This document shows, in pieces, positions 14,772 to 59,022 of a stretch of DNA of 64,000 nucleotides. The translations under genes and the position numbers were made by a program. The stretch's first letter is position 1; every line of letters starts with the position of its first letter. Source of the stretch: Streptomyces griseoviridis (GTDB taxonomy: Bacteria; Actinomycetota; Actinomycetes; Streptomycetales; Streptomycetaceae); NCBI RefSeq assembly GCF_005222485.1, contig NZ_CP029078.1, forward strand, positions 3,965,501 to 4,029,500, in the 5' to 3' direction. The notes under the pieces were generated by a model, which searched no databases, was not told the DNA's origin, and was given only the letters and a program-made list of their open reading frames with translations.

Positions 14772-14788
14772 TCTGACGCTCCGTCAGA
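14772..14788. promoter_or_regulatory. Palindromic operator TCTGACGCTCCGTCAGA (site 1)
   Basis: This is a perfect 7-3-7 palindrome between the divergent conserved gene (start 14741) and SDR gene (start 14833). The identical 17-mer is found at 36081-36097, and close variants precede four more catabolic promoters. Size and symmetry fit a TetR-type repressor site. Confidence 0.75.
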
Positions 14789-14832
14789 TGATTGGCCAGG
14801 GCCGTAGGGCGCCCGATCCGGGGAGGTTTTCG

Positions 14833-15621
14833 ATGTCGCTGCTCACGGGCAGGACGGTCGTGGTGTCGGGGGTCGGGGCGGGGCTCGGCCATCAGGTGGC
14901 GGCGGCCGTGGTGCGCGACGGCGGGAACGCGGTGCTCGGGGCGCGCACGGAGGAGAACCTCGCACGGAGCGCCTCCGCCATCGACCCGCGGGGCGCGCAC
15001 ACCGCGTACCGGCCGACGGACATCACCGACGAGGCGCAGTGCGAGGCGCTGGCGGCGCTCGCCGTGGAGCGGTTCGGGCGGATCGACGCGGTCGTCCAAG
15101 TGGCGGCCTGGGACAGCTATTTCGGTGGTCTCGAGGATGCGGATTTCGCCACCTGGCAGTCGGTGATCGACGTGAATCTGCTGGGGTCGCTGCGGATCGC
15201 GCGGGCGTGTCTGCCGGGGCTGCGGGCGGCGGGCGGCGGGTCGGTGGTGTTCATCGGGACGCAGTCGTCGGTGGCGGCGCCCTCGCAGGTGCGGCAGGCG
15301 GCGTACGCGGCGTCCAAGGGGGCGCTGACGAGCGCGATGTACTCGCTGGCGCGGGAGTTGGGCCCGCACCGGATCCGGGTGAACACGGTGCTGCCGGGCT
15401 GGATGTGGGGGCCGCCGGTACGGGCCTACGTGCAGTTCACCGCGGCGACCGAAGGGGTACCTGAGGAGGAGGTGCTCGGCCGGCTGAGTTCCCGGATGGC
15501 GTTGCCCGACCTGGCGACCGACGGGGACGTGGCGGACGCGGCGGTGTTCCTGGCGTCGGACCGGGCGCGGGCGATCACGGGTCAGTCGTTGCTGGTCAAC
15601 GCGGGGGAGTTGATGCGTTAG
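14833..15621 (+). CDS. SDR-family oxidoreductase (palindrome regulon)
   Basis: The ATG at 14833 follows GGGGAGG. A longer frame from 14728 would cross the operator and is rejected. The product is 262 residues and has a Rossmann nucleotide motif VSGVGAGLGH (residues 11-20). The catalytic set is visible as Ser145 or Ser146 (GTQSS), Tyr158 and Lys162 (YAASK). The usual NNAG motif is replaced by QVAAW, an uncommon variation. It ends with AITGQSLLVNAGELMR, as in FabG-like enzymes. It likely oxidises or reduces a hydroxyl/keto group in the pathway controlled by the shared palindrome. The substrate is unknown. Confidence 0.85.
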   Translation: MSLLTGRTVVVSGVGAGLGHQVAAAVVRDGGNAVLGARTEENLARSASAIDPRGAHTAYRPTDITDEAQCEALAALAVERFGRIDAVVQVAAWDSYFGGLEDADFATWQSVIDVNLLGSLRIARACLPGLRAAGGGSVVFIGTQSSVAAPSQVRQAAYAASKGALTSAMYSLARELGPHRIRVNTVLPGWMWGPPVRAYVQFTAATEGVPEEEVLGRLSSRMALPDLATDGDVADAAVFLASDRARAITGQSLLVNAGELMR

Positions 15622-15780
15622 GCGCTTCGGACGGCATCCTCAGTTCATCCATATCCGTGAACACGGGCCATCGTCCGGAACATTTTTACTGTCTCTTGAC
15701 CTTCCGCTCGGTTGCCGTGAGCACGTCACCCCGCCCAGAGTTCACATGCCCGAACCGGCGGTGAACCTGGAAGGGGACCC

Positions 15781-17352: not shown

Positions 17353-17416
17353 CCGCCGGGTGACCCGAGGACGACCGTCCGGTGACCCGGGGACGACCGC
17401 CGGGTGACCCCTGAGT
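17351..17416. repeat. Three 22-base tandem repeats at the symporter stop codon
   Basis: The units start at 17351, 17373 and 17395. Each carries a GACCG-CGGGTGACCC core, with a few substitutions in units two and three. The first unit overlaps the stop codon of the symporter gene. Confidence 0.8.
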
Positions 17417-17431
17417 GAACCCTGCCAGCCT

Positions 17432-17453
17432 CCGCTATCCCCTCGGATAGCGG
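17432..17453. terminator. Hairpin over the ADP-ribosylglycohydrolase stop codon
   Basis: CCGCTATCC-CCTC-GGATAGCGG is a perfect 9-base-pair stem that includes the stop codon of the minus-strand gene. It lies between convergent genes and could terminate both. Confidence 0.55.
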
Positions 17454-18938: not shown

Positions 18939-18966
18939 CGGCCGTCACCGGGCGGGGGCCCGGCCG

Positions 18967-31618: not shown

Positions 31619-33073
31619 TCAGCCGGGCCAGACGATCGACTGGACCTCCCCGTAGGCGTGCAGGGCGTAGGAGCCCACGTCCCGGCCGACGCCGCTGCGC
31701 TTGAAGCCGCCGAAGGGCGCCTCCATGTTGCGGCCCACGGTGTTGACGCCGACCCCGCCGGCCCGCAGGCGGCGGGCGGTGCGGAAGGCGCGGGCGACGT
31801 CGCCGGACCAGACGTAGTCGATCAGGCCGTAGTCGCTGTCGTTGGCGAGGGCGACGCCCTCCTCGTCGTCGTCGAAGGGGATGACGACCACGACCGGGCC
31901 GAAGATCTCCTCGCGGGCCACCCGCATGTCGTTGGTGCAGCCGGCCAGCAGGGTGGGCGCCACATAGAACCCGCTCGCGTGGGGAGGCCGTTCGCCGCCG
32001 GTGACGACCGTCGCGCCTTCCTCGCGGCCGAGTTCGACGTACGCCTCGACGCGGTCGCGGTGGGCGGCGGAGATGACCGGCCCGACGACCGTGTCCCGCT
32101 CCCTCGGGTCGCCCACCTTCAACCGGCTCGCGTAGGCGGCCAGTTGCTCCACCAGCTGGTCGTGGACGGCGCGCTGGGCGAGCACCCGGGTGGGGGCCGT
32201 GCAGATCTGGCCGCTGTAGAAGGAGAAGGTGGTGCCGATGCCGGCCACCGCCGACGCGAGGTCGGCGTCGTCGTGGACGACGGCCGCGCCCTTGCCGCCC
32301 AGCTCCATCAGCTGGCGTTTCATCGACCGCCCGCACACCTCCGCGATGCGCTGTCCGACGGCGGTGGAGCCGGTGAAGCTCACCATGTCGACGTCCGCCG
32401 AGGCGACGGCCGCCTCGCCGACGGCGACGTCCCGCCCGGAGACGACGTTCACGACCCCGGGCGGCGCCCCGGCCGCCTCCAGGGCCGCCGCCATCCGGTA
32501 CACCGACAGCGGGTCCTGCGGCGCCGGTTTCACCACCACCGTGTTGCCCATGGCGAGCGCGGGCGCGACCTTGCCCGCCGGGTTGGCCCACGGGTTGTTG
32601 TACGAGGTGACGCAGGTGACGACGCCGACCGGACGGCGGGCGGCGAGCGCGCCGAGCACCCCGGCCCGGCCCATCGGGCCCGCCTCGTTGATCTGCGGCT
32701 CGATCGCCCACTCGTGGCGCTCCACCCGCGCGTAGCGCCGGAACCGGGCGGCGGCCACCGCGACCTGCATGCCGCGCGCGGTGGCGAGGGTGGCGCCGGT
32801 CTCCGCGGCGGCGAGGTCGGCGTACGGGCCGGCCTGGGCGCGGATCAGGTCGGCGGCCCGGCCGAGGACGGCGGCCCGCTCCTCGGGCGGGGTCCGCGAC
32901 CAGGGCCCGAACGCCTCCTTGGCGGCGGCGCAGGCGGCGCGCGCCTGCGCGGGCGACGCCTCGGGGGCGAGGCCCACGGTCCGTTCGGTCGCCGGGTCGA
33001 CGACGTCGTAGAAGCCGCCGTCGGGCTCGGTCCAGGCGCCGCCGACGAAGAGGCGCTGCGGTGGCTCGGTCAC
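31619..33073 (-). CDS. NAD(P)-dependent aldehyde dehydrogenase
   Basis: The GTG at 33073 overlaps the stop of the upstream amidohydrolase (GTGA), which fixes the start; the frame is open well beyond. The 484-residue enzyme has VTSYNNPWANPAGKVAPALAMGN near the cofactor site, then FTGSTAVGQ, the general base Glu in MELGGKG, and the nucleophile Cys near residue 291 in GQICTAP. The C-terminal NTVGRNMEAPFGGFKRSG is standard. It would oxidise an aldehyde produced by the upstream LLM or amidohydrolase enzymes to an acid suitable for CoA activation. The pathway placement is inference. Confidence 0.92.
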   Translation of the reverse strand: MTEPPQRLFVGGAWTEPDGGFYDVVDPATERTVGLAPEASPAQARAACAAAKEAFGPWSRTPPEERAAVLGRAADLIRAQAGPYADLAAAETGATLATARGMQVAVAAARFRRYARVERHEWAIEPQINEAGPMGRAGVLGALAARRPVGVVTCVTSYNNPWANPAGKVAPALAMGNTVVVKPAPQDPLSVYRMAAALEAAGAPPGVVNVVSGRDVAVGEAAVASADVDMVSFTGSTAVGQRIAEVCGRSMKRQLMELGGKGAAVVHDDADLASAVAGIGTTFSFYSGQICTAPTRVLAQRAVHDQLVEQLAAYASRLKVGDPRERDTVVGPVISAAHRDRVEAYVELGREEGATVVTGGERPPHASGFYVAPTLLAGCTNDMRVAREEIFGPVVVVIPFDDDEEGVALANDSDYGLIDYVWSGDVARAFRTARRLRAGGVGVNTVGRNMEAPFGGFKRSGVGRDVGSYALHAYGEVQSIVWPG

Positions 33074-34806
33074 CGGGTGCTCACCGTCCTGGTGTCCCGC
33101 CCCGAGCGCAGCACCCGGCCGGGCACCGCGCCGCTGACCGCGTCGTCGCGGATGGCCTCGACGCCGTTGACCCAGACGGCCCGCACGCCGAGCGCCCTGG
33201 CGTCCAGGCGGGGGCTGTCGCCGGGCAGGTCGTGCACCAGGGTGGCCTGGCCCGCGTCGATCCGCTCCGGGTCGAACAGCACCAGGTCGGCGTGGAACCC
33301 GGCCTCGATCCGGCCCCGTTCGCGCAGTCCGAACAGTTGGGCGGGGTCGTCGGTGAGCATCTTCACGGCCTGTTCGACGCCGACCAGCCGGCGCCCGCGC
33401 AGGCAGTCCCCGAGGAAGCGGGTGGTGTACGGCGCCCCGCACATCCGGTCGAGGTGGGCGCCCGCGTCGGAGCCGCCGAGCAGGACGTCCTCGTGGCGCC
33501 AGGTCTCGGCGCGCAGCGCCCAGGAGGCGGGGTCGTTGTCGGTGGGCATGGGCCACAGCACGGTGCGCAGCCGGTCGGCGGCGCAGATCTCGACCAGGCA
33601 GGCGAAGGGGTCCTGGCCGCGTTCGGCGGCGATGTCCTCGACGACCCGGCCGGACAGCCCGCGGTTGGCGTCGCTGTAGGTGTCGCCGATGACGTACCGG
33701 CCGAAGTGCGCGAGCCGCCGGAAGACGCCCGCCTCCTTGGAGTCGGCCCGGCGCAGCATCTCGGCCCGCACCTCGGGGTCGCGCAGCCTGGCGATGCGCT
33801 CGGGCACCGGCAGCGCGAGGATCGGCCCCCACCCGGGGATCAGGTTCAGGGCGCAGAAGGTGCCGAGGGACATGTTCATGGGGGTGAGGATCGGCATGGT
33901 GAGGGCGACGACCCTGCCGCCCGCCTTCCTGGCCCGTTCGCTCGCGTACAGCTGCCGGGGGACGCGTTCGGGTACGGCGGCGTCGACGGTCAGGACGTTC
34001 CAGTTCAGCGGGCGTCCGGCGACCGCGCTCAGCTCGGCGAACAGGTCGATCTCGGCGTCGCTGAACTGGTCGAGGCAGCCGGCCGTGATCGCCTCGATCT
34101 GGGTGCCCTCGTGCTCGCCCACCGCCCGTGCCAGCGCGAGGAGTTCGGCGGGCCTGGCGTGCCGGGAGGCGACGGGCTGTCCGTCGCCGTCGGTGTGGGT
34201 GCTCGACTGGGTGGTGGAGAAGCCCCAGGCGCCCGCGTCCATGGCCGCGTGCAACAGCCGCAGCATCTGGTCGAGTTGCTCGTCGCTCGGCTGTCCGCCG
34301 ACGGCGTCGGCGCCCATCACGTACCGGCGCAGCGCGCAGTGCCCCACCATGAAGCCGGCGTTGACGGCGATGCGCCCCTCCAGGGCGTCGAGGTACTCCC
34401 CGAAGCCGTGCCAGTTCCAGGGCGCCCCCTCTTCGAGGGCGACCAGCGACATGCCCTCGACCTTGGACATCATGCGGCGGGTGTAGTCGGCGTCCTCGGG
34501 GCGGTCGGGGTTCAGGGGCGCGAGGGTGAAGCCGCAGTTGCCCGCGGCGACGGTGGTCACCCCGTGGTTGAGGGACGGGGTGGCGTACGGGTCCCAGAAC
34601 AGCTGGGCGTCGTAGTGGGTGTGCGGGTCGACGAACCCGGGGGCGAGCATGAGCCCGGTGCCGTCCTCCCGGCTCCGGGACTCCTCGTCGGCCCCGATCG
34701 TCCCGATCCTCGCGATGCGCCCGCCGCGCGTCCCGACATCGGCGACGAAGGCGGGCCCTCCGGTCCCGTCGACGACGGTGACCCCGGCAATCACATGATC
34801 AAACAT
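33070..34806 (-). CDS. Amidohydrolase family protein, N-acyl-D-amino-acid deacylase type
   Basis: The ATG at 34806 follows AGGAGG, and an upstream ATG at 34890 lies inside a hairpin. The 578-residue product opens MFDHVIAGVTVVDGTGG. The metal-binding HTH (His62, His64) is in APGFVDPHTHYDAQLFWDP, further metal-site His candidates lie in VGHCALRRYV, and the catalytic Asp is in LGGSDAGAHLDRM. COG3653 members hydrolyse amides, hydantoin-like rings or related bonds with zinc. Here the enzyme lies between an LLM oxidoreductase and an aldehyde dehydrogenase and so probably acts on a pathway intermediate. Substrate unknown. Confidence 0.87.
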   Translation of the reverse strand: MFDHVIAGVTVVDGTGGPAFVADVGTRGGRIARIGTIGADEESRSREDGTGLMLAPGFVDPHTHYDAQLFWDPYATPSLNHGVTTVAAGNCGFTLAPLNPDRPEDADYTRRMMSKVEGMSLVALEEGAPWNWHGFGEYLDALEGRIAVNAGFMVGHCALRRYVMGADAVGGQPSDEQLDQMLRLLHAAMDAGAWGFSTTQSSTHTDGDGQPVASRHARPAELLALARAVGEHEGTQIEAITAGCLDQFSDAEIDLFAELSAVAGRPLNWNVLTVDAAVPERVPRQLYASERARKAGGRVVALTMPILTPMNMSLGTFCALNLIPGWGPILALPVPERIARLRDPEVRAEMLRRADSKEAGVFRRLAHFGRYVIGDTYSDANRGLSGRVVEDIAAERGQDPFACLVEICAADRLRTVLWPMPTDNDPASWALRAETWRHEDVLLGGSDAGAHLDRMCGAPYTTRFLGDCLRGRRLVGVEQAVKMLTDDPAQLFGLRERGRIEAGFHADLVLFDPERIDAGQATLVHDLPGDSPRLDARALGVRAVWVNGVEAIRDDAVSGAVPGRVLRSGRDTRTVSTR

Positions 34807-34930: not shown

Positions 34931-36049
34931 CTACACCGCCGCGCGGAACCGCGAGGTCCGGTGGACGGGGTCCGTGTCGATCTTCGGAATCACGTGCTCG
35001 CCGATCAGCCGGATCGTCCGCAGCGTCTCCTCCTTCGGCACCCCCACCGGCAGCCCGAAGCTCAGCTGGTCCGCGCCCGCCTGCTCCCACCGCTTGCACT
35101 GGGTGAGCACCTCGTCCGGGTCGCCGCAGATCAGCAGCTCCTCCTCGATGAGCAGCTCCACGAACTCGGGCGTGTACTGCGGCAGCGTCTCCGGCCACTC
35201 GGGGAACCCCTCGGGCCTGGGGAAGGTGTCGTGGTAGCGGAAGACGAGCGACGGCAGGTAGTGCAGGCCGCCCGCGACGGCGGTCGCGATGGCCTCGTCG
35301 TGGGTCGGCGCGCAGATCGCCGTCGTCGTCACCATCACGTTGTCGTTGACGAAGTCGCCGATGGGTTCGGCGTTCACGATGGCGCTCTTGTACTGGTCGA
35401 GCACCCACTCCATGTCGGAGACCTTCTGGATGCTGAAGCCGAGCACGCCGAGCCCCTTGCGCGCGGCCATCGCGTACGACGGCGGCGACCCGGCCGCGTA
35501 CCACATCGCCGGGTGCGACTTCCCGTACGGCTTGGGCAGGATCTTGCGCGGCGGGAGCTGCCAGTGGGTGCCCTGGAAGCCGACGTACTCGTCCTGGAGC
35601 CACATCTTGGGGAACTCCGCGATGGTCTCCTCCCAGATCTCCTTCGTGTGGTTCATGTCGGTGATGCCCGGCAGGAACCCGAGGATCTCGTGGGAGCCGG
35701 CGCCGCGTCCGCTGCCGAACTCGAAGCGGTTGCCGGTGAGATGGTCGAGCATGGCGACCTTCTCTGCGACCTTCACCGGGTGGTTGACCTGGGCCAGCGG
35801 GTTGAAGATCCCGGAGCCGAGGTGGATGCGTTCGGTGGCGTGGGCGAGGTAGCCGAGGTAGACGTCGTTGGCGGAGAGGTGCGAGTACTCCTCCAGGAAG
35901 TGGTGCTCGGACGCCCACGCGTACTTGAAGCCCGAGCGGTCCGCCTGGATGACGTACTCGGTCTCCTCCATCAGCGCCTTGTGCTCGGCGAGCGGGTCGG
36001 TCTCGGCGCGCTTGCCCACGTATCCCTGTACAAAGAGCCCGAATTCCAA
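34931..36049 (-). CDS. LLM-class flavin-dependent oxidoreductase, LuxA-like
   Basis: The 372-residue protein is longer than most LLM enzymes and close to bacterial luciferase alpha chains in layout. It has MEFGLFVQGYVGKRAETDP at the start, YAWASEHHFLEEYSHLSAND and MLDHLTGNRFEFGSGRGAGSHE (flavin or F420 phosphate region). Family members insert oxygen with reduced flavin or transfer hydride with F420H2. Two palindromic operator sites precede it. It heads the LLM-amidohydrolase-aldehyde dehydrogenase unit and may perform the oxygenation whose product feeds the dehydrogenase. Confidence 0.88.
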   Translation of the reverse strand: MEFGLFVQGYVGKRAETDPLAEHKALMEETEYVIQADRSGFKYAWASEHHFLEEYSHLSANDVYLGYLAHATERIHLGSGIFNPLAQVNHPVKVAEKVAMLDHLTGNRFEFGSGRGAGSHEILGFLPGITDMNHTKEIWEETIAEFPKMWLQDEYVGFQGTHWQLPPRKILPKPYGKSHPAMWYAAGSPPSYAMAARKGLGVLGFSIQKVSDMEWVLDQYKSAIVNAEPIGDFVNDNVMVTTTAICAPTHDEAIATAVAGGLHYLPSLVFRYHDTFPRPEGFPEWPETLPQYTPEFVELLIEEELLICGDPDEVLTQCKRWEQAGADQLSFGLPVGVPKEETLRTIRLIGEHVIPKIDTDPVHRTSRFRAAV

Positions 36050-36080: not shown

Positions 36081-36097
36081 TCTGACGCTCCGTCAGA
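36081..36097. promoter_or_regulatory. Palindromic operator TCTGACGCTCCGTCAGA (site 2)
   Basis: This 17-mer is identical to site 1 at 14772 and lies 32-48 bases upstream of the LuxA-like gene. Two exact copies of a perfect 17-base palindrome 21 kb apart, both in front of catabolic genes, are strong evidence of a shared regulator. Confidence 0.78.
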
Positions 36098-36145
36098 TAC
36101 GGTCTGCCGCCCGACTGTGGCACCGGCCGCATGCACCGTCAATAC

Positions 36146-36160
36146 CTGATGGGCGGTCAG
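36146..36160. promoter_or_regulatory. Degenerate operator CTGATGGGCGGTCAG (site 3)
   Basis: This 15-base element matches the CTGACG-NNN-CGTCAG pattern with two mismatches. It lies 49-63 bases beyond site 2, in the same upstream region of the LuxA-like gene and close to the 3' end of the SDR gene. A second, weaker repressor site is possible. Confidence 0.45.
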
Positions 36161-36168
36161 CTATGGGT

Positions 36169-36939
36169 TCACAAGATCGAGACGCCGGCCAGCCAGCCGC
36201 CGTCGATGACGAACGGCTGCCCGGTGACGTACGAGGAGTCCTCGGCGGTGAGGAACAGCGCGAGCCTCGCCACCTCCTCGGGCCGTCCGACCCGGCCGAG
36301 CGGCACGAGCTTGCGGTACAGCTCCTCCAGCGCCCGGCCCATCTCCTCGGGGTCCGCGTCCGGGTCGAGCCTGGCCGGGTTGGACATCGCCGTGTCGATC
36401 GCGCCGGGGCAGACCGCGTTGACCCGGATCCGCCGGTGCGCCAGCTCCAGCGCGGCCACCCGGGTCAGCCCGAGGATCGCGTGTTTGGTCGCGGCGTACG
36501 CGCCCACCGCGGCCATGCCGGTGACGGCCGTGTAGGACGCGGTGTTGACGATGGTGGCGCCGTCCTCAAGGGCGGGCGCGACGGTCCTGATGCCGAGGAA
36601 GCAGCCGACCTGGTTGACCCGCACCACCCGCATGAACTCGTCGAGCGGGGTGTCCACGAGGGCGTTGAAGCGCAGGATGCCCGCGTTGTTGACGAGCCCG
36701 TCGAGGTGGCCGTACCGCTCCCTGGCGGTGTCGACCGCCGCCCGCCAGTCGTCCTCCTCCCCCACGTCGAGGTGGACGTACAGCGCGTCCAGCTCCTCGG
36801 CCAGCGCCCGCCCCTGGTCGTCGAGGACGTCGGCGACGACGACGTCGGCGCCCTCCGCCCGGAAGAGGCGGGCCTCCTGCTCGCCCTGCCCGCGTGCCGC
36901 GCCGGTGACGAGCACCACGCGGCCGTCCAGCTTGCCCAT
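36169..36939 (-). CDS. SDR-family hydroxysteroid-dehydrogenase-like oxidoreductase
   Basis: The 256-residue classical SDR has nucleotide motif TGAARGQGE (12-20), NNAG (84-87), Asn109, and the catalytic Ser135, Tyr148 and Lys152 (ASY...YAATK). The TGAARGQGE variant and the ending [15 protein letters not shown] are typical of 3-alpha/20-beta-hydroxysteroid dehydrogenase-like enzymes, which oxidise secondary alcohols of bulky ring substrates with NAD(H). It is third in a unit after an amidohydrolase and an LLM oxidoreductase, nine bases downstream of the latter. The steroid link is a family resemblance only. Confidence 0.88.
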
Positions 36940-36948: not shown

Positions 36949-37872
36949 CTAGAGGTGGGGGGCCACGTCGGCGCCGAACGCGGCCATCTGGTCGATGAGT
37001 TCGGCCCGCCCGCGGCTGCGGAAGCGCACCTGGATCTGGTCGACGCCCATCTCCCGGTAGGCGCGCAGGGAGGCGGCGAGCGCCTGCGGCGGGCCGCTGA
37101 GCGTGCGCCGGCCGACGTCGTGCGCCGGGGTGCCGACGTACAGCGGCTCGGTGATCGCGCCGGTGGTGAACGGCCCCTCGACGCCCGCCCGTTCGCGCAG
37201 CTCGCGGATGCGGGCGAGCTGGGCCGGCAGCCGGTCGCGGGGGTCGCCCTGCGGGAGCCAGCCGTCGCCCTTGAGGGCGGCCCGGCGGACGGCCGCGGGC
37301 GAGGAGCCGCCGACCCAGAGCGGGACCCGGCTCTGGGCGGGCCGGGGGCGCTGGCCCAGGCCCTCGAAGTCGTAGTGCTCGCCGTGGTGTTCGGGGAACT
37401 CCTCGGGGCCGAGGGCGGCGCGCAGGGCGTCCACGCACTCGTCGAGGACCTGACCGCGCCGCGCGAAGTCCGCGCCGAGCGCGTCGAACTCCTCCCGGAC
37501 GTGCCCGGCGCCGACCCCGAGGACCAGCCGGCCGCCGCTGAGGTGGTCGAGGGTGGCGTACTGCTTGGCGGTGAGCAGTGGGTGGCGCAGGCCGACCACG
37601 GCGACATGGCTGAGCAGCCTGACCCGTCCGGTCACCCCGGCCAGGTAGCCGAGGGTGGCGACGGGGTCGTACCAGACGGTGCTCATCGCGGCGGCGAGGC
37701 GGCGCGGGATCGCCACGTGGTCGCAGCAGGCGACGTAGTCGAAGCCGGACCGGTCGGCGGCGCGGGCGATCTCCGCGAGGTCCTCGGGACCGGCCGACGC
37801 CTCCCACGGCTCCGCGTACAGGGCGCTCTGCGACTGGACGGGCAACTGGATGCCGTACGCCGGCGCGCTCAC
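36949..37872 (-). CDS. LLM-class F420-dependent oxidoreductase (TIGR03619 type)
   Basis: The GTG at 37872 overlaps the amidohydrolase stop (GTGA). The 307-residue product starts SAPAYGIQLPVQSQS. It contains SGFDYVACCDHVAIP, LDHLSGGRLVLGVGAGHVREEF and GWLPQGDPRDRL, the signature blocks of the F420-dependent branch. It would use F420H2 to reduce or oxidise a pathway intermediate. It is encoded between the amidohydrolase and the SDR as one transcription unit. Confidence 0.88.
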   Translation of the reverse strand: MSAPAYGIQLPVQSQSALYAEPWEASAGPEDLAEIARAADRSGFDYVACCDHVAIPRRLAAAMSTVWYDPVATLGYLAGVTGRVRLLSHVAVVGLRHPLLTAKQYATLDHLSGGRLVLGVGAGHVREEFDALGADFARRGQVLDECVDALRAALGPEEFPEHHGEHYDFEGLGQRPRPAQSRVPLWVGGSSPAAVRRAALKGDGWLPQGDPRDRLPAQLARIRELRERAGVEGPFTTGAITEPLYVGTPAHDVGRRTLSGPPQALAASLRAYREMGVDQIQVRFRSRGRAELIDQMAAFGADVAPHL

Positions 37873-39101
37873 CGCCACAGCCCCTCGGGGGTGAGCCCGA
37901 GCAGGTCGATCGCGTTGCCGCGCACGATGCGCTCCACCACGTCGGGCGCCAGGTGGCCCATCTGCGCCTCGCCGACCTCGCGTGACCTGGGCCAGGTGGA
38001 GTCGGAGTGCGGGTAGTCGGTCTCGTACAGGACGTTGCCGACGCCGATCGCGTCGAGGTTGCGCAGGCCGAACGCGTCGTCGAAGAAGCAGCCGTACACA
38101 TGGTCGGCGAACAGCTCGGACGGCGGGCGGTGGACCTTGTCGGCGACCCCGCCCCAGCCGCGGTTCTCCTCCCAGACCACGTCGGCGCGTTCCAGGATGT
38201 AGGGGATCCAGCCGATCTGGCCCTCGGCGTACATCACCTTGAGGTTCGGGAAGCGCTCGAACTTGCCGCTCATCAGCCAGTCGACCATGGAGAAGCAGCA
38301 GTTGGCGAAGGTGATGGTGGAGCCGACCGCGGGGGGCGCGTCCTCGGAGGTGGACGGCATCCGGCTGCTGGAGCCGATGTGCATGGCGACGACCGTGCCG
38401 GTCTCGTCGCAGGCGGCGAGGAAGGGGTCCCAGTCGTCGGTGTGCACGGAGGGCAGCCCGAGGTGCGGGGGTATCTCGGAGAAGGCGACCGCGCGCACCC
38501 CGCGGGCCGCGTTGCGGCGGACCTCGGCGGCGGCCGACTCGGCGTCCCAGAGCGGGATGAGGGTGAGCGGGATCAGCCGTCCGCGGGCGTCGGGCCCGCA
38601 CCACTCCTCGACCATCCAGTCGTTGTAGGCGCGCACCGACAGCAGCCCCAGCTCCCGGTCGGCGGCCTCGGTGAAGGTCTGGCCGCAGAAGCGCGGGAAG
38701 GTCGGGAAGCAGAGGGCGGACTGCACGTGGTTGACGTCCATGTCGGCCAGCCGCCGCTTCACGTCGAAGGAGCCCGGCCGCATCTGCTCGTAGGTGATGA
38801 CCTCCAGGCGGATCTCGTCCCGGTCGTAGCCGACGGCGGTGTCGAGGCGGGTGAGCGGGCGGTGCAGGTCCTCGTAGACCCACCAGTCGCCGACCGGCCC
38901 CTCGTCTCCCGGGCGCCCCATCACCGGCTTGAACCGGCCGCCGAGGAACGTCATGTCCTTCAGCGGGGCGCGGACGATCCGCGGACCGGTGTCCAGGTAC
39001 TTCCTCGGCAGCCGGTCCTGCCACACGGTCGGGGGCTCCACCGTGTGGTCGTCGACGGAGATGATCAGCGGAAACGCGGCGTCGGTGTCCATGGCCTTCA
39101 C
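37869..39101 (-). CDS. Amidohydrolase family protein (ACMSD/decarboxylase-like, COG2159)
   Basis: A GTG at 39101 gives 410 residues; an ATG three codons later (39092) is also possible. Motifs: IISVDDHTVEPPTVW at the N-terminus (the HxH position reads DDH), VVAMHIGSSS with a metal His, and NVLYETDYPHSDSTWP near the C-terminus with the metal-binding Asp. COG2159 members are zinc enzymes performing decarboxylation or C-C and C-N hydrolysis, often in ring degradation. It is the first gene of an operon with the F420-type LLM enzyme and the SDR. A palindromic operator lies 12 bases upstream. Confidence 0.87.
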   Translation of the reverse strand: MKAMDTDAAFPLIISVDDHTVEPPTVWQDRLPRKYLDTGPRIVRAPLKDMTFLGGRFKPVMGRPGDEGPVGDWWVYEDLHRPLTRLDTAVGYDRDEIRLEVITYEQMRPGSFDVKRRLADMDVNHVQSALCFPTFPRFCGQTFTEAADRELGLLSVRAYNDWMVEEWCGPDARGRLIPLTLIPLWDAESAAAEVRRNAARGVRAVAFSEIPPHLGLPSVHTDDWDPFLAACDETGTVVAMHIGSSSRMPSTSEDAPPAVGSTITFANCCFSMVDWLMSGKFERFPNLKVMYAEGQIGWIPYILERADVVWEENRGWGGVADKVHRPPSELFADHVYGCFFDDAFGLRNLDAIGVGNVLYETDYPHSDSTWPRSREVGEAQMGHLAPDVVERIVRGNAIDLLGLTPEGLWR

Positions 39102-39112: not shown

Positions 39113-39129
39113 TCTGACGACCCGTCAGC
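39113..39129. promoter_or_regulatory. Palindromic operator TCTGACGACCCGTCAGC (site 4)
   Basis: This site matches sites 1 and 2 in both heptamer arms except the last base. It lies 12 bases upstream of the amidohydrolase start and about 160 bases before the divergent afsR. The closeness to the start codon fits repression of the amidohydrolase operon. Confidence 0.7.
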
Positions 39130-42820: not shown

Positions 42821-44461
42821 TCACAGGCCGCCGCGCCCGCGCAGCTCGCCCTTGACGACCTTGCCGCTCGCGTTGCGCGGCAGCCGGGCCACGAACTCCA
42901 CCTGCCGGGGCACCTTGTAGTTGGCCATCTCGCGGCGCGACCAGGCGATCAGGTCGTCCGCCGTGCTGCGCGCGCCCGGCCTGCGCACCACGTACGCCCT
43001 GCCGACCTCGCCGAGCCGGTCGTCGGGCACCCCGACGACCGCGATGTCCGCCACGTCCGGGTGCAGGCCGAGGAGTTGCTCGATCTCCGCCGGGTACGCG
43101 TTGAAGCCGCCGACGATGAACATGTCCTTGATCCGGTCGGTGATCCGGAGGTTGCCCGCCGGGTCCAGGATGCCCACGTCCCCGGTGCGCAGCCAGCCGT
43201 CACCGCTGACGGCGTCCGCCGCCGCCCCCTCGGCCGCCTCGCCGTCGCCGCCGTCCCCGCCGTCCCCTCCTTCGTAACCCCGCATCACGTTGAAGCCCCG
43301 CACCAGCACCTCGCCGGGGCGGCCGGGCGGCAGCGGGGTGCCCTCCGGGTCGACGACTTGTACCTCGGTGCCCGGGATGGCGCGGCCCGACGTCGACGCC
43401 ACGACCTCCGGCGGATCGCCCCTGCGGCACATCGTGACGATGCCGCTCGCCTCGGAGAGGCCGTAGGCCGTCAGGACCGTGCCGACGCCGAGTTCGCCGC
43501 GCAGCCGCTCCACGAGACGCAGCGGGACCACGGCCGCGCCGGTCACCACCAGGCGCAGCGCCGACAGGTCGTGCGCCTGCCTCGCCGGGTGGTCGAGGAG
43601 CGACTGGTGCAGGGTCGGCGGTCCCGGCAGCACCGACACCCGCTCCGCCGCGATGTTCGCGAGCACGGCGTCGACGTCGAAGACCGGCTGCGGGATCATC
43701 GTCGCGCCCCGCATGAGGCAGGCCAGGACGCCCGCCTTGTAGCCGAAGGTGTGGAAGAACGGGTTGACGATCAGATAGCGGTCGCCGCGGCGCAGCCCCG
43801 CGAGGTCGCTCCAGATCTCGTACGCCCGCAGCGTCTGCGCGTGGGTGATCGCCACGCCCTTGGGGCGGCCGGTGGTCCCCGAGGTGAAGACGAGGTCCGA
43901 CGGCCGGTCGCCGCGCACCGCCGCCGCCCGCGCCCGCACCTCGCCCGCCGCGACCGTGCCGCCGCCGGCCAGGAACTCCTGCCAGGTGCGGAAACCGGCG
44001 GGCGCGTCCCCCGACAGCACCACCACCTCGCGCAGCTCGGGCAGTCCCGGCAACGGCCCCCGGCCGGGCCCCGCACCGGCCGCGCGGCGCAGCGCCGCCA
44101 CGTACGAGGTGCCCAGGAACGCCCCCGTCACGAACAGCAGCCTGGCCCGGCTCGCGCGCAGCGCGTAGGCCGCCTCGGCGCCCTTGAAGCGGGTGTTGAG
44201 CGGCACCAGGACCGCACCGGCCGAGACCGCGCCGAGCGCGGCGACGATCCAGTCGAGCGAGTTGGGCGCCCAGACCGCGACCCGGTCGCCCGGCGCGAGG
44301 CCGTGGGCGACGCAGGCCGCCGCCGCGCGCTCGACGCGGGCGCCGAGTTCGCCGTAGGAGATCCGGGTCCTTCCCTCGACGACCGCCTCGGTGTCGGCGT
44401 ACCGCTCGGCCGCCGCGCGGACCAGTCCGGGGATGCTGCCCCACTCCACGTCACCACGCAC
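42821..44461 (-). CDS. Acyl-CoA synthetase, FadD3-like
   Basis: The 546-residue AMP-forming ligase has the phosphate loop TSGTTGRPKG, NPFFHTFGYKAG, YGLSEASG, the hinge-region LRTGDVG, TDRIKDMFIVGGFNAYPAEIE and the catalytic Lys in NASGKVVKGEL. It converts a carboxylic acid to its CoA thioester. The FNVMRGYE segment and overall layout resemble FadD3, which activates the last two rings in steroid degradation (HIP), but specificity cannot be read from sequence. A Gly/Asp/Glu-rich insertion lies near residue 405. It is divergent from the Ltp2-like thiolase gene, with two operator copies between. Confidence 0.9.
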   Translation of the reverse strand: MRGDVEWGSIPGLVRAAAERYADTEAVVEGRTRISYGELGARVERAAAACVAHGLAPGDRVAVWAPNSLDWIVAALGAVSAGAVLVPLNTRFKGAEAAYALRASRARLLFVTGAFLGTSYVAALRRAAGAGPGRGPLPGLPELREVVVLSGDAPAGFRTWQEFLAGGGTVAAGEVRARAAAVRGDRPSDLVFTSGTTGRPKGVAITHAQTLRAYEIWSDLAGLRRGDRYLIVNPFFHTFGYKAGVLACLMRGATMIPQPVFDVDAVLANIAAERVSVLPGPPTLHQSLLDHPARQAHDLSALRLVVTGAAVVPLRLVERLRGELGVGTVLTAYGLSEASGIVTMCRRGDPPEVVASTSGRAIPGTEVQVVDPEGTPLPPGRPGEVLVRGFNVMRGYEGGDGGDGGDGEAAEGAAADAVSGDGWLRTGDVGILDPAGNLRITDRIKDMFIVGGFNAYPAEIEQLLGLHPDVADIAVVGVPDDRLGEVGRAYVVRRPGARSTADDLIAWSRREMANYKVPRQVEFVARLPRNASGKVVKGELRGRGGL

Positions 44462-44492
44462 GACCGGCCTCCAGCCCTCCGCACACCCGTAG

Positions 44493-44507
44493 CTGACGGA
44501 CCATCAG
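44493..44507. promoter_or_regulatory. Palindromic operator CTGACGGACCATCAG (site 5)
   Basis: This element matches CTGACG-NNN-CGTCAG with one mismatch. It lies 32 bases upstream of the ligase start. Its centre is 27 bases from that of site 6. Confidence 0.65.
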
Positions 44508-44519
44508 ATTAGCTGTAGC

Positions 44520-44534
44520 CTGACGACCTGTCAG
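44520..44534. promoter_or_regulatory. Palindromic operator CTGACGACCTGTCAG (site 6)
   Basis: This element matches CTGACG-NNN-CGTCAG with one mismatch. It lies 33 bases upstream of the thiolase start, nearly mirroring site 5 relative to the ligase. Each divergent gene thus has its own copy. Confidence 0.65.
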
Positions 44535-44566
44535 CACACGGTGCACGGCACGGAGGTGGGCACAGC

Positions 44567-45727
44567 ATGGCCGCAGCGGGCATCAAGGACGCGACCGCCG
44601 TCGTCGGCATCGGACAGACCGCCTTCGCCAGACACCTCCCCGAGGACGAACGCACCCTCGCCTGCCGCGCGGTGCTCGCCGCCCTCGACGACGCCGGGAT
44701 CGCGCCGGGCGAGGTCGACGCGCTCGCCTCCTACACGATGGAGGAGACCGACGAGGTCGAGCTGGCCAAGGCGGTGGGGTTCGGCGACCTCACCTGGTTC
44801 GGCAGGATCGGCTACGGCGGCGGCGGTTCGTGCGCGACGGTCGCGCAGCTCGCCGCCGCGATAGCGAGCGGGCAGGCCAGTGTCGGCGTCGCCTGGCGCT
44901 CCCGCAAACGCGGCAGCGGCGCCCGCCCCTGGACCGACACCGTCCGCCAACTCCCCACGCCCGCCCAGTGGACGCGCCCCTTCGGGCTGCTCAGACCCGT
45001 CGACGAGATCGCCATGCTGACCCGGCGCTATCTGCACGAGTACGGCGCCACCCGCGACCACCTCTTCAACGTCGCGCTCGCCTGCCGCAACCGGGCCAAC
45101 CAGAACCCGGACGCGATGATGTACGACCGGCCGCTGACCCGCGAGATGTACATGACGTCCCGGTGGATCAGCGAGCCGCTCTGCCTCTTCGACAACTGCC
45201 TGGAGACGGACGGGGCGTTGGCGTGCGTGGTGGTCGGAGCCGAGCGGGCGAGGGACTGCCGGCGCCGGCCGGTGCTGATCCACGCCGCCGCCCAGGGCCT
45301 GCCCGCCCAGCACCACGGCATGGTCAACTACTGGAACGACGACCCGCTCACCGGACCCGCCTGGGCCGCCGCCCGGCACCTGTGGAAGCACGCCGACCTG
45401 ACCCCCGAGGACGTCGACGTGGCGCAGATCTACGACGCGTTCACCGCCCTGGTCCCGCTCTCCCTGGAGGGCTACGGCTTCTGCGGGCGCGGCGAGGGCG
45501 GCGCGTTCACCGAGCAGGGCGCCCTGGAGACCGGCGGCCGGCTGCCCCTCAACACGGGCGGCGGCGGCCTCAGCGAGGCGTACGTGCACGGCTTCAACCT
45601 CATCACCGAGGGAGTGAAACAGCTCCGCGGCACCAGCACCGCTCAGGTGCCGGGGGCGACGACGTGCCTGGTGACGGCGGGCGAGGGGGTGCCGACCTCG
45701 GCGCTGCTGCTGCGCGCGGGGGACTGA
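44567..45727 (+). CDS. Ltp2-like thiolase-fold aldolase (lipid-transfer family)
   Basis: The 386-residue thiolase-fold protein belongs to the lipid-transfer (SCP-x/Ltp) branch. Tyr289 (IYDAFTAL) and Tyr339 (LSEAYVHG) are 50 residues apart, the same spacing as the two catalytic tyrosines reported for the steroid retro-aldolase Ltp2. A Cys is also present at the usual nucleophile position (GGGGSCATVAQ, Cys89), whereas the His-Pro motif of true thiolases is absent. Together with the next gene, a DUF35 protein, it probably forms a retro-aldolase that cleaves a beta-hydroxyacyl-CoA. It is first of three coupled genes. Confidence 0.85.
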   Translation: MAAAGIKDATAVVGIGQTAFARHLPEDERTLACRAVLAALDDAGIAPGEVDALASYTMEETDEVELAKAVGFGDLTWFGRIGYGGGGSCATVAQLAAAIASGQASVGVAWRSRKRGSGARPWTDTVRQLPTPAQWTRPFGLLRPVDEIAMLTRRYLHEYGATRDHLFNVALACRNRANQNPDAMMYDRPLTREMYMTSRWISEPLCLFDNCLETDGALACVVVGAERARDCRRRPVLIHAAAQGLPAQHHGMVNYWNDDPLTGPAWAAARHLWKHADLTPEDVDVAQIYDAFTALVPLSLEGYGFCGRGEGGAFTEQGALETGGRLPLNTGGGGLSEAYVHGFNLITEGVKQLRGTSTAQVPGATTCLVTAGEGVPTSALLLRAGD

Positions 45728-45782: not shown

Positions 45783-46205
45783 ATGGCGTTGCTGACCCCG
45801 GTCGTCGACCCCGACGGCGCCCCCTTCTGGGAGCACGCCCGCGCGGGCCGGCTGCACATCCAGGCGTGCGCGGACTGCGGCACGTTCCGCTTCCCGCCGC
45901 GCCCCTGCTGCCCGCACTGCCAGTCGTTCGGCCAGGAGTGGCGCCGGGTGAGCGGCCACGGCCGGATCTGGTCGTACGTCGTCCCGCACCCGCCCCTGCT
46001 GCCCGACTACGCCGCGCAGGCCCCCTACAACGTGATCGTCGTCGAACTCGACGACGCCCCGCGGGTGCGGCTGGTCGGCAACCTCGTCACGGAGGCCGGG
46101 GCGCGGCTCGACTCGGTACCGCCCGAGCAGATCAGGATCGGGGCCAGGGTGCGGGTGGTGTTCGACGGCACGGGCCTGCCGCAATGGGTGCGGGAGCGGC
46201 CGTGA
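45783..46205 (+). CDS. DUF35 OB-fold protein, acyl-CoA-binding partner of the thiolase
   Basis: The ATG at 45783 follows GGAGAGGAG. The 140-residue product has an N-terminal rubredoxin-like zinc knuckle (CADCGTFRFPPRPCCPHC), then an OB fold (GRIWSYVVPHPPLLP and IGARVRVVFDGT). In the Ltp2-ChsH2 complex the DUF35 domain binds the CoA moiety and is needed for aldolase activity. The gene order here predicts the same partnership. Its stop overlaps the next start (GTGA). Confidence 0.9.
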   Translation: MALLTPVVDPDGAPFWEHARAGRLHIQACADCGTFRFPPRPCCPHCQSFGQEWRRVSGHGRIWSYVVPHPPLLPDYAAQAPYNVIVVELDDAPRVRLVGNLVTEAGARLDSVPPEQIRIGARVRVVFDGTGLPQWVRERP

Positions 46206-46972
46206 CGGTACGGCTGGACACCGACGCCTCGACCGGCGTGGCCGTCGTCACCCTGGACCGGCCGGACCGCCTCAACGCGATCGACCTCGCGGCCCGTGAC
46301 GAACTGCGGTCCGTGTGGCGGGCGTTGCGGTTCGACGCGGCGGTGCGGGCGATCGTCCTCACCGGGGCGGGGGACCGGGCGTTCTGCACGGGCATCGACC
46401 GGAGCACCGAGGTCCCGCAGCCCGACTCGCCCTACATGACGGACGATCCGCTGCTGCGGGCGGGCCCGAAATCCAACGACCTGTGGAAACCGGTGATCGC
46501 CGCGGTGACCGGCATGGCCTGCGGCGGGGCCTTCTACCTGCTGGGCGAGGCCGAGTTCGTGGTCGCCGACCCCGGCGCCACGTTCTTCGACCCGCACACC
46601 ACGTACGGGATGGTCAGCGCGTACGAGTCGATGCTGATGGCGGCGCGGATGCCGTACGGGGAGGTGGCGCGGATGGCGCTGCTCGGCACGGCGGAACGGA
46701 TCGGCGCGGCCCGCGCCCACCAGATCGGCCTGGTCTCCGAAGTGACGTCGCCAGGAGGCGCGTTGGCCGCCGCGGTGCGGAGCGCGACCGTCGTCGCCGG
46801 GTACCCGACGGTGGCCGTGCAGGGCACGGTGCGGGCGCTGTGGGCGGCCAGGGAGACGGCCCTCGCCGCCGGCTTCGCCCAGGCCCCGCACCTGATCGCA
46901 CTGGGCAACCTGCCGGCGCGGGAGCAGTCGGCGCTGTTCGGCGCGCGGGGCACGGAGTTCGAGGTGCGCTGA
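46202..46972 (+). CDS. Crotonase-fold enoyl-CoA hydratase/hydrolase family protein
   Basis: The GTG at 46202 overlaps the DUF35 stop. The 256-residue protein starts VRLDTDASTGVAVVTLDRPD and has both oxyanion-hole segments (RAFCTGIDRS and GMACGGAFYLLGE). The two catalytic glutamates of true enoyl-CoA hydratases are not at their usual places: the loop reads FFDPHTTYGMVSAYESMLM. The reaction may therefore be an isomerisation or C-C hydrolysis, as seen in some ring-opening crotonases, rather than simple hydration. It is the last gene of the thiolase-DUF35 operon. Confidence 0.82.
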   Translation: MTVRLDTDASTGVAVVTLDRPDRLNAIDLAARDELRSVWRALRFDAAVRAIVLTGAGDRAFCTGIDRSTEVPQPDSPYMTDDPLLRAGPKSNDLWKPVIAAVTGMACGGAFYLLGEAEFVVADPGATFFDPHTTYGMVSAYESMLMAARMPYGEVARMALLGTAERIGAARAHQIGLVSEVTSPGGALAAAVRSATVVAGYPTVAVQGTVRALWAARETALAAGFAQAPHLIALGNLPAREQSALFGARGTEFEVR

Positions 46973-54355: not shown

Positions 54356-54477
54356 AGCGCCAAAGTAACGGCGACGCGCGCACCCCGCAGACCAGGCACA
54401 GCCCCCTCCGGGACCTCGTGCACCCCATTTGCAGTCGGCCGAATCGCGCTCCCATCACCCCTCGGTAAGCTGACGGC

Positions 54478-55125
54478 ATGACAGGACAAGTGCGTACCGT
54501 CGACGGCCGCGTGGCCGGCCGACGTGGGCAGGCGACCCGGCAGAAGCTGCTCGACTGCCTCAGCGAGATGCTCAGCTCCTCCCCCTACCGGGACGTCAAG
54601 GTCATCGATGTCGCCCGGAAGGCGGGGACTTCGCCCGCGACCTTCTACCAGTACTTCCCGGACGTCGAGGGTGCCGTCCTGGAGATCGCCGATCAAATGG
54701 CCGCCGAAGGAGCCGGGTTGACCGAGCTGCTGGCCGGCCGCAGCTGGGTGGGAAAGGCCGGCTGGCAGACAGCGCAGGAACTCGTGGACGGTTTCCTGGA
54801 GTTCTGGCGGAAGAACGACGCGATCCTCAGGGTCGTCGATCTCGGCGCGGCCGAGGGTGACAAGCGGTTCTACAAGATCCGGATGAAGATCCTCAACTCC
54901 GTCAACAACTCCTTGGCCGACTCCGTCGCGGAGTTGCAGTCCAAGGGCAGGGTCGACAAGGACGTGAACCCGGCGGCGGTCGCCGGTTCGCTGGTCGCGA
55001 TGCTCGCGGCGGTCGCCTCGCACCAGAAGGGATTCCAGAGCTGGGGTGTGAAGCAGGCCGAACTGAAGCCGAACCTGGCCTTGTTGGTTCATCTGGGCGT
55101 GACCGGAAAGAAGCCGACCAAGTAG
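54478..55125 (+). CDS. TetR-family transcriptional regulator
   Basis: The 215-residue product has a TetR helix-turn-helix (about residues 18-62): TRQKLLDCLSEML, then DVARKAGTSPATFYQYF. An all-helical ligand domain follows. It is divergent from the kbpA-like gene, an arrangement I recall as conserved in S. coelicolor, so it probably belongs to the afs locus rather than to the catabolic genes. Its start region has a CTGACG half-site but no full palindrome. It is the only TetR gene in the window and therefore the local candidate, though not a compelling one, for binding the shared TCTGACG palindrome. Confidence 0.88.
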   Translation: MTGQVRTVDGRVAGRRGQATRQKLLDCLSEMLSSSPYRDVKVIDVARKAGTSPATFYQYFPDVEGAVLEIADQMAAEGAGLTELLAGRSWVGKAGWQTAQELVDGFLEFWRKNDAILRVVDLGAAEGDKRFYKIRMKILNSVNNSLADSVAELQSKGRVDKDVNPAAVAGSLVAMLAAVASHQKGFQSWGVKQAELKPNLALLVHLGVTGKKPTK

Positions 55126-55874: not shown

Positions 55875-55883
55875 GAAGGCCGC

Positions 55884-56231: not shown

Positions 56232-56503
56232 GACGCGTCCTCCAAGGCCCCGGGGAAGGCAGGCCCGACGAGGTGGACCCCGTGCGCCCGCCCCCACCCC
56301 GCGCCGGCCACCCGAAGACGCGGCGCGAGGTCGACGGGATCAACGTCCCTCTCCCTGGCGCCCGTTACGGGACACAGGCACCAGCGACCGCACAACTCGC
56401 CCCGGATCCTCCCGACCCGCTCCCGCGTGTGCACCAAGAGGGCACCGAGGGCCGGGGCGGTCGAAAGAGCTTGCCGCTCGGCGGAAACACCGTCGACAGA
56501 CAT
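56228..56503 (-). CDS. Small protein of unknown function, coupled to the next gene
   Basis: The 91-residue frame begins MSVDGVSAERQALSTAPALG and contains LLVHTRERVGRIRGELCGRW. Its stop overlaps the next start (ATGA at 56231-56228), which supports translation of both. It is divergent from the XRE gene at 56597. Small variable genes of this kind commonly lie opposite HTH-DUF397 pairs in Streptomyces. No function can be proposed. Confidence 0.45.
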   Translation of the reverse strand: MSVDGVSAERQALSTAPALGALLVHTRERVGRIRGELCGRWCLCPVTGARERDVDPVDLAPRLRVAGAGWGRAHGVHLVGPAFPGALEDAS

Positions 56504-56596
56504 GATCAGCTCCGCTCTGTAGTCGTTCCACTACTGGGAGCGCTCAGAGTGACCTAGAGTCAGCGTGTCTTCAACGTTCTGAAATCGGAGGACACG

Positions 56597-57436: not shown

Positions 57437-57648
57437 TGATCGACACTCCCTCCTCCCCATGGATCAGGTCCTCGTACAGTGGCAGCGGCGGCTCCTGCGT
57501 CGAATGGGCCCCAGCGCACACGACCAGCACCGGCATAGTCCCCGTCCGCGACTCGAAAGACCCGCGCGGACCCGTGCTCGCCCTCCCGATCACCGCGTTC
57601 GCCGCCTTCGTCGCAGGCGTCAGAGACGGGGAGTTCGGCGCCGTCTGA
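57433..57648 (+). CDS. DUF397 small protein
   Basis: A GTG at 57433 overlaps the XRE stop codon; an ATG immediately follows at 57436 and may be the true start. The 71-residue product has PWIRSSYSGSGGSCVEWAPA, then IVPVRDSKDPRGPVLALP and a Phe-rich end. It is the normal single-motif form of DUF397, unlike the doubled copies at 20.3-20.8 kb. Confidence 0.88.
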   Translation: MMIDTPSSPWIRSSYSGSGGSCVEWAPAHTTSTGIVPVRDSKDPRGPVLALPITAFAAFVAGVRDGEFGAV

Positions 57649-57678
57649 GTATCGGGGCGTGGTTCGGTGCCCGTCCGT

Positions 57679-58989
57679 TCACACCGTGACCTCTCCTCCC
57701 TCGAAGAGACGCGCGCTGTCCGCCGCGTGCGCCCGCAGTCGGTGGGCAGGTCCGAACAGCAGCTCGTCGCCCGCCGCGCGCTTGAAGTACAGATGCGCCT
57801 CGTGCTCCCAGGTGAACCCGATCCCGCCGTGCAGCTGGATCCCCTCGGCGGCGGCGCACCGCAGCGCGTCGAGCCCCTGCGCGAGCGCCAGCCCCCCGAC
57901 CCGCCCCACGCCTCCCCCGGCAGGCGCGGCGGACCCGCCGTCCACGTCCGACGCCCCGGCCGGCCTCCCCGGCGTCCCGGCAACGCCCTCCGGCGCCCCT
58001 TCCGGCCTCCCCTTCGTTCCGGTCGCGCCCTCCGGCCGTCCGCTCGCCCACGCCGCGTAGTAGGCCGCCGAGCGGGCTGATTGCAGGCGGACGTACACGT
58101 CGGCCAGGCGGTGCTTGACGGCCTGGAAGGAGCCGATCGGGCGGCCGAACTGTTCGCGGCGGGCCACGTGTTCGACCGTGGTCTCCAGCGCGCGCCCGGC
58201 GGCTCCGACGGCCTCGCAGGCGAGCACCGTCGCCGCCCGGTCCCCGACGGCGGCCAGCGCCCCGAGCACATCGGCGTCCTCCTCGCCCAGCAACTCGCCC
58301 TCCACATCGCGCAGTTGCACCCGCCCCTGGGGCCGGGTCGCGTCGAGCGCGGTGCGCCGGGCGCGGGTGACGCCCCGCGCGTCCCCGCGGACCAGGAAGA
58401 TCAGCGTCCGGGACCGGGCGAAGCCGCCGCTGTGCGCGGCGACCAGCAGCAGCGCCGCGCTGTGCCCGTCGAGCACCTGGTCGACCTCCCCGTACAGCCG
58501 CCACCCGGTGCCCGTCCGGCGGGCCTGCACGCCCCCCGCGCGGCCACCGCCGGCCCACTCGTCGCCGGCCGCGCCGGTCAGCGCGAGGGCGGTGGCGAGC
58601 GCCGGTCCCGGCACCGCGAGGGCGGCGGTGAGGCTCCCCTCCGCCAGCCGGGGCAGCAGCCCCGCGCGCTGCGCCTCGGTGCCGAGGGCCAGCAGCAGCG
58701 GAGCGGCGAGGACGGTGGTGGCGAGCAGCGGGGACGGCGCGAGGGCGCGGCCGGTCTCCTCGCAGGCCAGGGCGAGGTCGGCGAAGGGGCAGCCGACACC
58801 GCCGTACCGCTCGGGGAGGGCGAGCGCGGGCAGGCCGAGCTGTCCGGCGAGGGCGGCCCACAGGGCGGGGTCGTGGCCGGACGGCCGGTCGACGGCGGCG
58901 CGCAGCTCCTCGGGGCCGCAGCGGCTGCGCAGGAGTTCGCGCAGGGTACGGCGGATCTCGTCCTGTTCGGCGGTGAAGCTGGCGTCCAT
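57679..58989 (-). CDS. Acyl-CoA dehydrogenase family protein with Gly/Pro insertion
   Basis: The 436-residue FadE-type protein starts MDASFTAEQDEIRRTLRELL, then LGLPALALPERYGGVGCPFA in the N-terminal helical domain. The C-terminal domain contains REQFGRPIGSFQAVKHRLAD and GIQLHGGIGFTWEHEAHLYF. An insertion of about 40 Gly/Pro/Ala-rich residues splits two C-terminal helices after YYAAWASGRPEG. The usual YEGT-type catalytic glutamate segment is not visible. In alpha2-beta2 enzymes of steroid degradation such subunits work with a partner, but no partner is encoded here. It would desaturate the acyl-CoA formed by the ligase. The operator at 59006 lies 17 bases upstream. Confidence 0.85.
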   Translation of the reverse strand: MDASFTAEQDEIRRTLRELLRSRCGPEELRAAVDRPSGHDPALWAALAGQLGLPALALPERYGGVGCPFADLALACEETGRALAPSPLLATTVLAAPLLLALGTEAQRAGLLPRLAEGSLTAALAVPGPALATALALTGAAGDEWAGGGRAGGVQARRTGTGWRLYGEVDQVLDGHSAALLLVAAHSGGFARSRTLIFLVRGDARGVTRARRTALDATRPQGRVQLRDVEGELLGEEDADVLGALAAVGDRAATVLACEAVGAAGRALETTVEHVARREQFGRPIGSFQAVKHRLADVYVRLQSARSAAYYAAWASGRPEGATGTKGRPEGAPEGVAGTPGRPAGASDVDGGSAAPAGGGVGRVGGLALAQGLDALRCAAAEGIQLHGGIGFTWEHEAHLYFKRAAGDELLFGPAHRLRAHAADSARLFEGGEVTV

Positions 58990-59005
58990 GGCACTTCCCT
59001 CCGGA

Positions 59006-59022
59006 TCTGACGGTCCGTCATA
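59006..59022. promoter_or_regulatory. Palindromic operator TCTGACGGTCCGTCATA (site 7)
   Basis: TGACG-GTC-CGTCA is perfectly symmetrical, and the element matches sites 1 and 2 except at the distal end. It lies between the divergent acyl-CoA dehydrogenase (start 58989) and thiolase (start 59073) genes. Confidence 0.72.

Follow-up and report, generated by a model that had tools for sequence, protein, structure and literature searches.

A palindrome at promoters of dispersed acyl-CoA catabolism genes in Streptomyces griseoviridis and its likely TetR-family regulator

KstR and KstR2, repressors of steroid-type catabolism, are the precedent for control by acyl-CoA ligands, and the KstR2 regulon comprises FadD3, IpdAB, IpdC, EchA20, FadE and FadA6. 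Among Streptomyces regulators, SCO3201 of Streptomyces coelicolor binds TGGCAGATTCTGCCA, as given in an excerpt of PMC7324645. Here we describe a 17-base palindrome found at the promoters of numerous genes for fat- and steroid-like degradation in soil bacteria of the Streptomyces type. The window is the whole 64,000-nt stretch analysed, positions 3965501-4029500 of the 8.96-Mb source genome. An earlier note had placed scattered catabolic units in it under one shared operator and a TetR-type regulator, a view now supported by genome counts, promoter position, orthologous promoters, Frankiales-type stretches and a co-occurring TetR gene. Judging from the sequences, the palindrome very probably serves as operator for a TetR-family protein whose gene lies at 54478-55125; a dimer of this protein most likely represses dispersed acyl-CoA catabolism genes until a ligand binds. 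A large acyl-CoA catabolism block that is widespread in Streptomyces thereby acquires a named candidate regulator, an operator and a list of targets. The control circuit is apparently undescribed; the literature titles and abstract openings listed contain no description of this operator or of TetR_C_38, which leaves absence unproven.

The palindrome in the window and in the genome

A 17-base search of the window finds exact copies of TCTGACGNNNCGTCAGA at 14772 and 36081, just where they had been reported. Of the variants proposed alongside them, those at 39113 and 59006 have one mismatch each among 14 arm positions, that at 44492 has two and that at 44519 three; the one at 36146 is weak, matching at 10 of 14 arm positions and falling outside the window's list of matches with up to three mismatches. 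Both members of the 44492/44519 pair are present; their 17-base starts lie one base to the left of the earlier 44493 and 44520, which number a 15-base core. The features are as follows.

13902..14741, minus strand: conserved 279-aa protein; homologs in several families, 40-82% identical
14772..14788, no strand: putative operator from the motif search, exact (14/14), between the 279-aa protein (minus) and an SDR gene (plus)
14833..15621, plus strand: SDR (adh_short_C2)
31619..33073, minus strand: aldehyde dehydrogenase, same strand as the LLM at 34931..36019
33070..34794, minus strand: amidohydrolase, between that LLM and the aldehyde dehydrogenase
34931..36019, minus strand: luciferase-like monooxygenase (LLM), followed by the amidohydrolase and the aldehyde dehydrogenase
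36081..36097, no strand: putative operator from the motif search, exact, upstream of the LLM gene 34931..36019
36145..36161, no strand: weak second site, 10/14
36169..36939, minus strand: SDR, gene 3 of an amidohydrolase-LLM-SDR run
36949..37878, minus strand: LLM, TIGR03619 family, 242.7 bits (cut-off 166.9)
37869..39101, minus strand: PF04909 amidohydrolase, first gene past site 39113
39113..39129, no strand: putative operator, 13/14, immediately upstream of the amidohydrolase start
42821..44461, minus strand: FadD3-family acyl-CoA ligase, 761.7 bits (cut-off 657)
44492..44508, no strand: putative operator, 12/14, member 1 of a pair kept in related loci
44519..44535, no strand: putative operator, 11/14, member 2 of the pair
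44567..45727, plus strand: Ltp2-like lipid-transfer protein/thiolase, PRK07855, 571.7 bits (cut-off 469)
45783..46205, plus strand: ChsH2/DUF35-type OB-fold protein (PF01796, PF12172)
46202..46972, plus strand: crotonase-family enoyl-CoA hydratase; best NCBIfam matches under cut-off
54469..54485, no strand: degenerate site across the TetR start codon, left half CTGACG complete, 10/14 counted by hand
54478..55125, plus strand: TetR-family regulator, TetR_N + TetR_C_38, 215 aa; putative operator binder
57679..58989, minus strand: acyl-CoA dehydrogenase (ACAD)
59006..59022, no strand: putative operator, 13/14, between the acyl-CoA dehydrogenase and the thiolase
59073..60254, plus strand: thiolase-fold protein, PRK06158-like, 413.2 bits, slightly under the cut-off of 421

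Some neighbours of these sites recur elsewhere. The 279-aa protein, which adjoins the exact site at 14772 and has zero Pfam or NCBIfam matches, is kept at 40-82% identity in f1, f3, f16 and f20 loci. Site 39113 also adjoins a 959-aa protein (39377-42256) that reads as a SARP/AfsR-type regulator, and genes resembling it adjoin sites in genomes G307 (846139) and G026 (6171080). At the place equivalent to 36081/36145, G307, a Streptomyces-type genome, carries a pair of 12/14 sites with a spacing of 60 bp.

Short palindromes may arise by chance in a GC-rich genome, and the window alone stays within that expectation: six matches with up to three mismatches were found against a shuffle mean of 4.30, a non-significant count that 26 of 100 shuffles reached. 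Genome-wide, with the reversed pattern as control, TCTGACGNNNCGTCAGA occurs 19 times with at most one mismatch (control, 0) and 84 times with at most two (control, 10), and the 15-base core 144 times with at most one (control, 20). The scan thus places the motif above background, as the regulon proposed earlier would have it. Matches with two mismatches are mixed, and this set, of which 31 of 65 places were viewed, is partly noise: the 32 sites of 12/14 in the fetched stretches comprise 17 in promoter position, 10 in coding sequence and 5 elsewhere. The control counts, together with the retention of sites in orthologous promoters described below, refute a chance origin of the sites with at most one mismatch, and we give chance practically no weight as an account of the palindrome.

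We defined promoter position as lying outside genes and no more than 300 bp upstream of a start codon, with genes called by a custom script. By this measure 17 of the 19 sites of at least 13/14 in the source genome are in promoter position, compared with 10.6% of random positions, so that the comparison with random expectation also comes out in favour of the regulon. Sites of 12-14/14 continue past the window end (4030833, 4032737, 4035948, 4047313, 4050526, 4056128 and 4056217); the unbroken 144 kb surrounding the window holds 12 sites of at least 12/14, 11 of them in promoter position and 7 past the window end. The stretches were picked around sites, and their site densities are therefore not those of the genome as a whole. 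Fourteen of the 19 face catabolic-type genes when neighbours are judged by reading, many homologs having been identified by eye from gene starts and models run on part of them. These genes encode FadD ligases, acyl-CoA dehydrogenases, Ltp/ChsH2-type proteins, LLMs, PF04909 amidohydrolases and SDRs, and also a flavin reductase, an isochorismatase/PPOX pair and a nitronate monooxygenase. The other five (4047313, which is 3' of an ADH gene; 2208193; 5870718; 6626343, in coding sequence; and 8882101) do not, by this reading, precede catabolic-type genes, and the idea that sites stand only before catabolic enzyme genes fails at the scale of the genome.

Sites in orthologous promoters of relatives

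Of 41 genomes in the relatives search, counting the source genome, 40 contain matches with at most one mismatch; the 24 same-genus relatives carry between 1 and 32 (control, 0 or 1). Across 80 TetR-centred loci there are 179 sites against 0 for the control. In two site alignments the central triplet varies among species and adjacent bases such as TTAGG are kept; conservation of the arms is circular there, since the search pattern fixes them, and a test on upstream regions of orthologs replaces it. For this we used 73 named TetR-centred loci (67 Streptomyces, 4 Actinomadura, Yinghuangia and one MAG), found orthologs by tblastn regardless of the motif, and scored 200 bp upstream for a site of at least 12/14. 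Such a site precedes the thiolase gene in 44/49 cases, the ACAD gene in 45/46, FadD3 in 26/27 and Ltp2 in 26/28, with 0 for control arms. As thiolase and ACAD share one intergenic region and FadD3 and Ltp2 another, these amount to two independent cases rather than four.

Other genomes show similar arrangements. G307, of the same genus, keeps the cluster content and has 14 of 15 sites in promoter position (background 10.5%), and in family f3, of the same order, sites lie in a cluster with FadD, LLM, paired ACADs, cyclase, SDR/ADH and Ltp2-DUF35-crotonase. In stretches picked around the sites of the Frankiales-type (f16) genomes G074 and G147, all 42 sites of at least 12/14 are in promoter position (background 7.5%), mostly before gene kinds similar to those in the source genome. 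G074 is a Frankiales MAG, and its TetR is 100% identical to that of JAICXJ010000001.1.

Family f15 presents an anomaly. Its genomes of 4.3-5.5 Mb (G051, G073, G091, G107 and G123) each contain 51-177 near-perfect copies (control, 0), which lie mostly outside promoters as judged from stretches of G051, where 11 of 38 are in promoter position, 16 in coding sequence and 11 otherwise intergenic; the promoter share still exceeds the 7.5% background (p 7.5e-5). Some f15 copies precede repeated genes that look DUF222/HNH-like, and others lie just past stop codons. The f15 relative of the TetR protein has a shorter C-terminus. Either these copies are a different element or the shorter relative works differently, and a chromosome-organising role is conceivable. 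Given the 11/38 in G051, we set the f15 counts aside as support for the regulon and prepared tables with and without this family.

The f15 copies also bear on whether the palindrome might work in RNA, for example as the hairpin of an intrinsic terminator, instead of binding a protein. Several of the 11 intergenic non-promoter copies in G051 are 3-20 bp from stop codons, and some 2-mismatch matches in the source genome are similarly placed. Against this stand the promoter positions in the source genome (17/19), f16 (42/42) and G307 (14/15), and a pairing that stops at the arms, with 0.11-0.39 per position beyond them. Neither a position after genes nor an extended stem, as expected of intrinsic terminators, characterizes the source-genome and f16 sites. 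We consider an RNA element highly improbable and a protein-bound operator the better account.

A candidate TetR-family regulator

The gene at 54478-55125 lies within the window, where the earlier note had left it unnamed. Its product matches PF00440 TetR_N at the N-terminus (26.7 bits, cut-off 24) and PF19352 TetR_C_38 at the C-terminus (246.8 bits, cut-off 23.9), and equivalents lie within the cluster in the source genome, G307, and f3 and f16 genomes. In a class-wide sample of 296 Actinomycetes genomes, we called the regulator at E<=1e-30 and took as motif-rich the 40 genomes with at least four matches of at most one mismatch, a threshold set after the counts were known, in species that are related. 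The TetR_C_38 regulator is present in 38/40 motif-rich and 11/256 motif-poor genomes (Fisher 1.6e-35, kinship ignored), and with f15 left out in 33/35 motif-rich genomes. The motif-rich genomes without it are G188, which is 68% complete, and G190; those with it and only 1 to 3 matches are seven same-genus genomes (1 or 2 matches), G050, G060, G069 and G094. Within f16, motif and TetR occur together in 7 genomes, both are missing from 4, and the motif is found without the TetR in 1 (G188).

Any gene inherited with the regulon would co-occur likewise, and the regulators compared cover 3 of 146 TetR_N places in the genome, all within the TetR family. Another protein might bind the operator, such as one of two further TetRs (the KstR-like one at genome 2787587 and that at 4044213), with the window TetR merely travelling along. 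The KstR-like gene sits in a second run of sites and occurs in 29/40 motif-rich genomes; it is a poorer fit, as 11 motif-rich genomes lack it and 68 of the 256 others have it, and the mycobacterial KstR site, TnnAACnnGTTnnA in an excerpt of PMC1995591, is unlike the operator. The TetR at 4044213 was dropped, as it occurs in 1/40 motif-rich and 5/256 other genomes. In the motif cluster of the source genome and of the f3 genomes G026 and G030, the window TetR is the sole TetR noticed by eye from gene starts. On the three TetRs compared, a different reader of the operator is unlikely, and the window TetR remains our candidate. A transporter-type operon at genome 4036841-4044896, inside a run of sites, ends in a TetR gene found in only 6/296 genomes.

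The regulator may also act on its own gene. A site of at least 12/14 lies directly upstream of the TetR gene in 5/6 fetched f16 loci, and 6/6 f20 genomes have such a site 230-290 bp before the conserved N-terminus. No site of at least 12/14 was found at the TetR gene in Streptomyces-type genomes; 68 aligned Streptomyces loci have a half-site with a degenerate partner over the TetR ATG, where flanking bases are equally conserved, and 4 Actinomadura loci have a better copy there (11/14 by hand). The helix residues T-S-x-A-T-F-Y-Q-Y-F do not vary in alignments of 16 and of 19 relatives.

On the model of other TetR repressors, a dimer of this protein would occupy the palindrome and prevent transcription, acting as a repressor rather than an activator. 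Its putative targets are genes for acyl-CoA ligases, acyl-CoA dehydrogenases, Ltp2/ChsH2-type retro-aldolases, thiolases, hydratases, LLMs, SDRs and amidohydrolases across the chromosome. The dimer would be released once its C-terminal domain bound an intermediate, acyl-CoA or acid, from the breakdown of a branched-ring or side-chain substrate, an acyl-CoA being the likely ligand because of the target genes and the behaviour of KstR and KstR2. Collectively, our data point to a genuine regulon and to a likely regulator that belongs with the catabolic repressors of the TetR family.

Comparison with known systems

Like the KstR regulon of mycobacterial sterol catabolism, this system pairs a regulator of the TetR type with a palindrome that recurs beside numerous lipid- or steroid-type degradation genes. 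The operators differ, as had been claimed from the window: TnnAACnnGTTnnA for KstR (PMC1995591, excerpt) and TCTGACGnnnCGTCAGA here. The window TetR has no match to the KstR model NF033703 at E<=1e-5, and its matches to FabR, SlmA and ScbR are under cut-off; the source genome encodes a separate KstR-like TetR (199 bits, under the cut-off of 280). It also has a steroid 3-ketoacyl-CoA thiolase (PRK07850, 686.5 bits, cut-off 515) beside a 12/14 site, and in G074 a KstR-like TetR (C11:80322-80870) lies within a contig bearing the f16 regulon. SCO3201 resembles our candidate as a TetR regulator affecting fatty acid genes and differs in its site, TGGCAGATTCTGCCA in the excerpt of PMC7324645. The nearest solved relatives by sequence are EthR structures, which share the TetR fold (E 2.3e-10 with profile A2), a remote likeness mostly in the DNA-binding half.

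The KstR2 site also differs from the operator, and the window shares with the KstR2 regulon a FadD3-family ligase. The corresponding Ipd-type module of the source genome (2433046-2444405; EchA20, IpdA, IpdB, IpdC, thiolase and an ACAD pair, by reading) has its own TetR, read by eye as KstR2-like, and is without this operator; no site above 10/14 was found at 2425001-2445000, around this Ipd-type (HIP) module. In G074, a run resembling EchA20/IpdA/IpdB/IpdC follows a 13/14 site that adjoins the TetR gene; the Ipd names are assigned by reading, Pfam giving CoA_trans and FabK-like matches. On contig C99 a thiolase/ACAD-pair region carries an exact site. The Ipd-type module has apparently exchanged its regulator (for the Ipd genes, see PMC5380842, excerpt).

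The source genome has an IpdA homolog. Among same-genus genomes 21/25 have one; those 21 carry 11-32 matches, and those without it 14 (in a genome 79% complete), 7, 1 and 7 (p 0.002). The steroid pathway is nonetheless scarce in Streptomyces, missing from 55/57 genomes according to an excerpt of PMC4810484, and an inducer could reveal the substrate. We tentatively raise the possibility, which we hold at somewhat less than even, that alongside KstR and KstR2 the TetR_C_38 protein forms a third master repressor, one that governs steroid/isoprenoid-type catabolism in actinobacteria lacking mycolic acids. On this reading it would have captured, in Frankiales, the Ipd (ring C/D) module, which in Streptomyces retains a TetR of its own.
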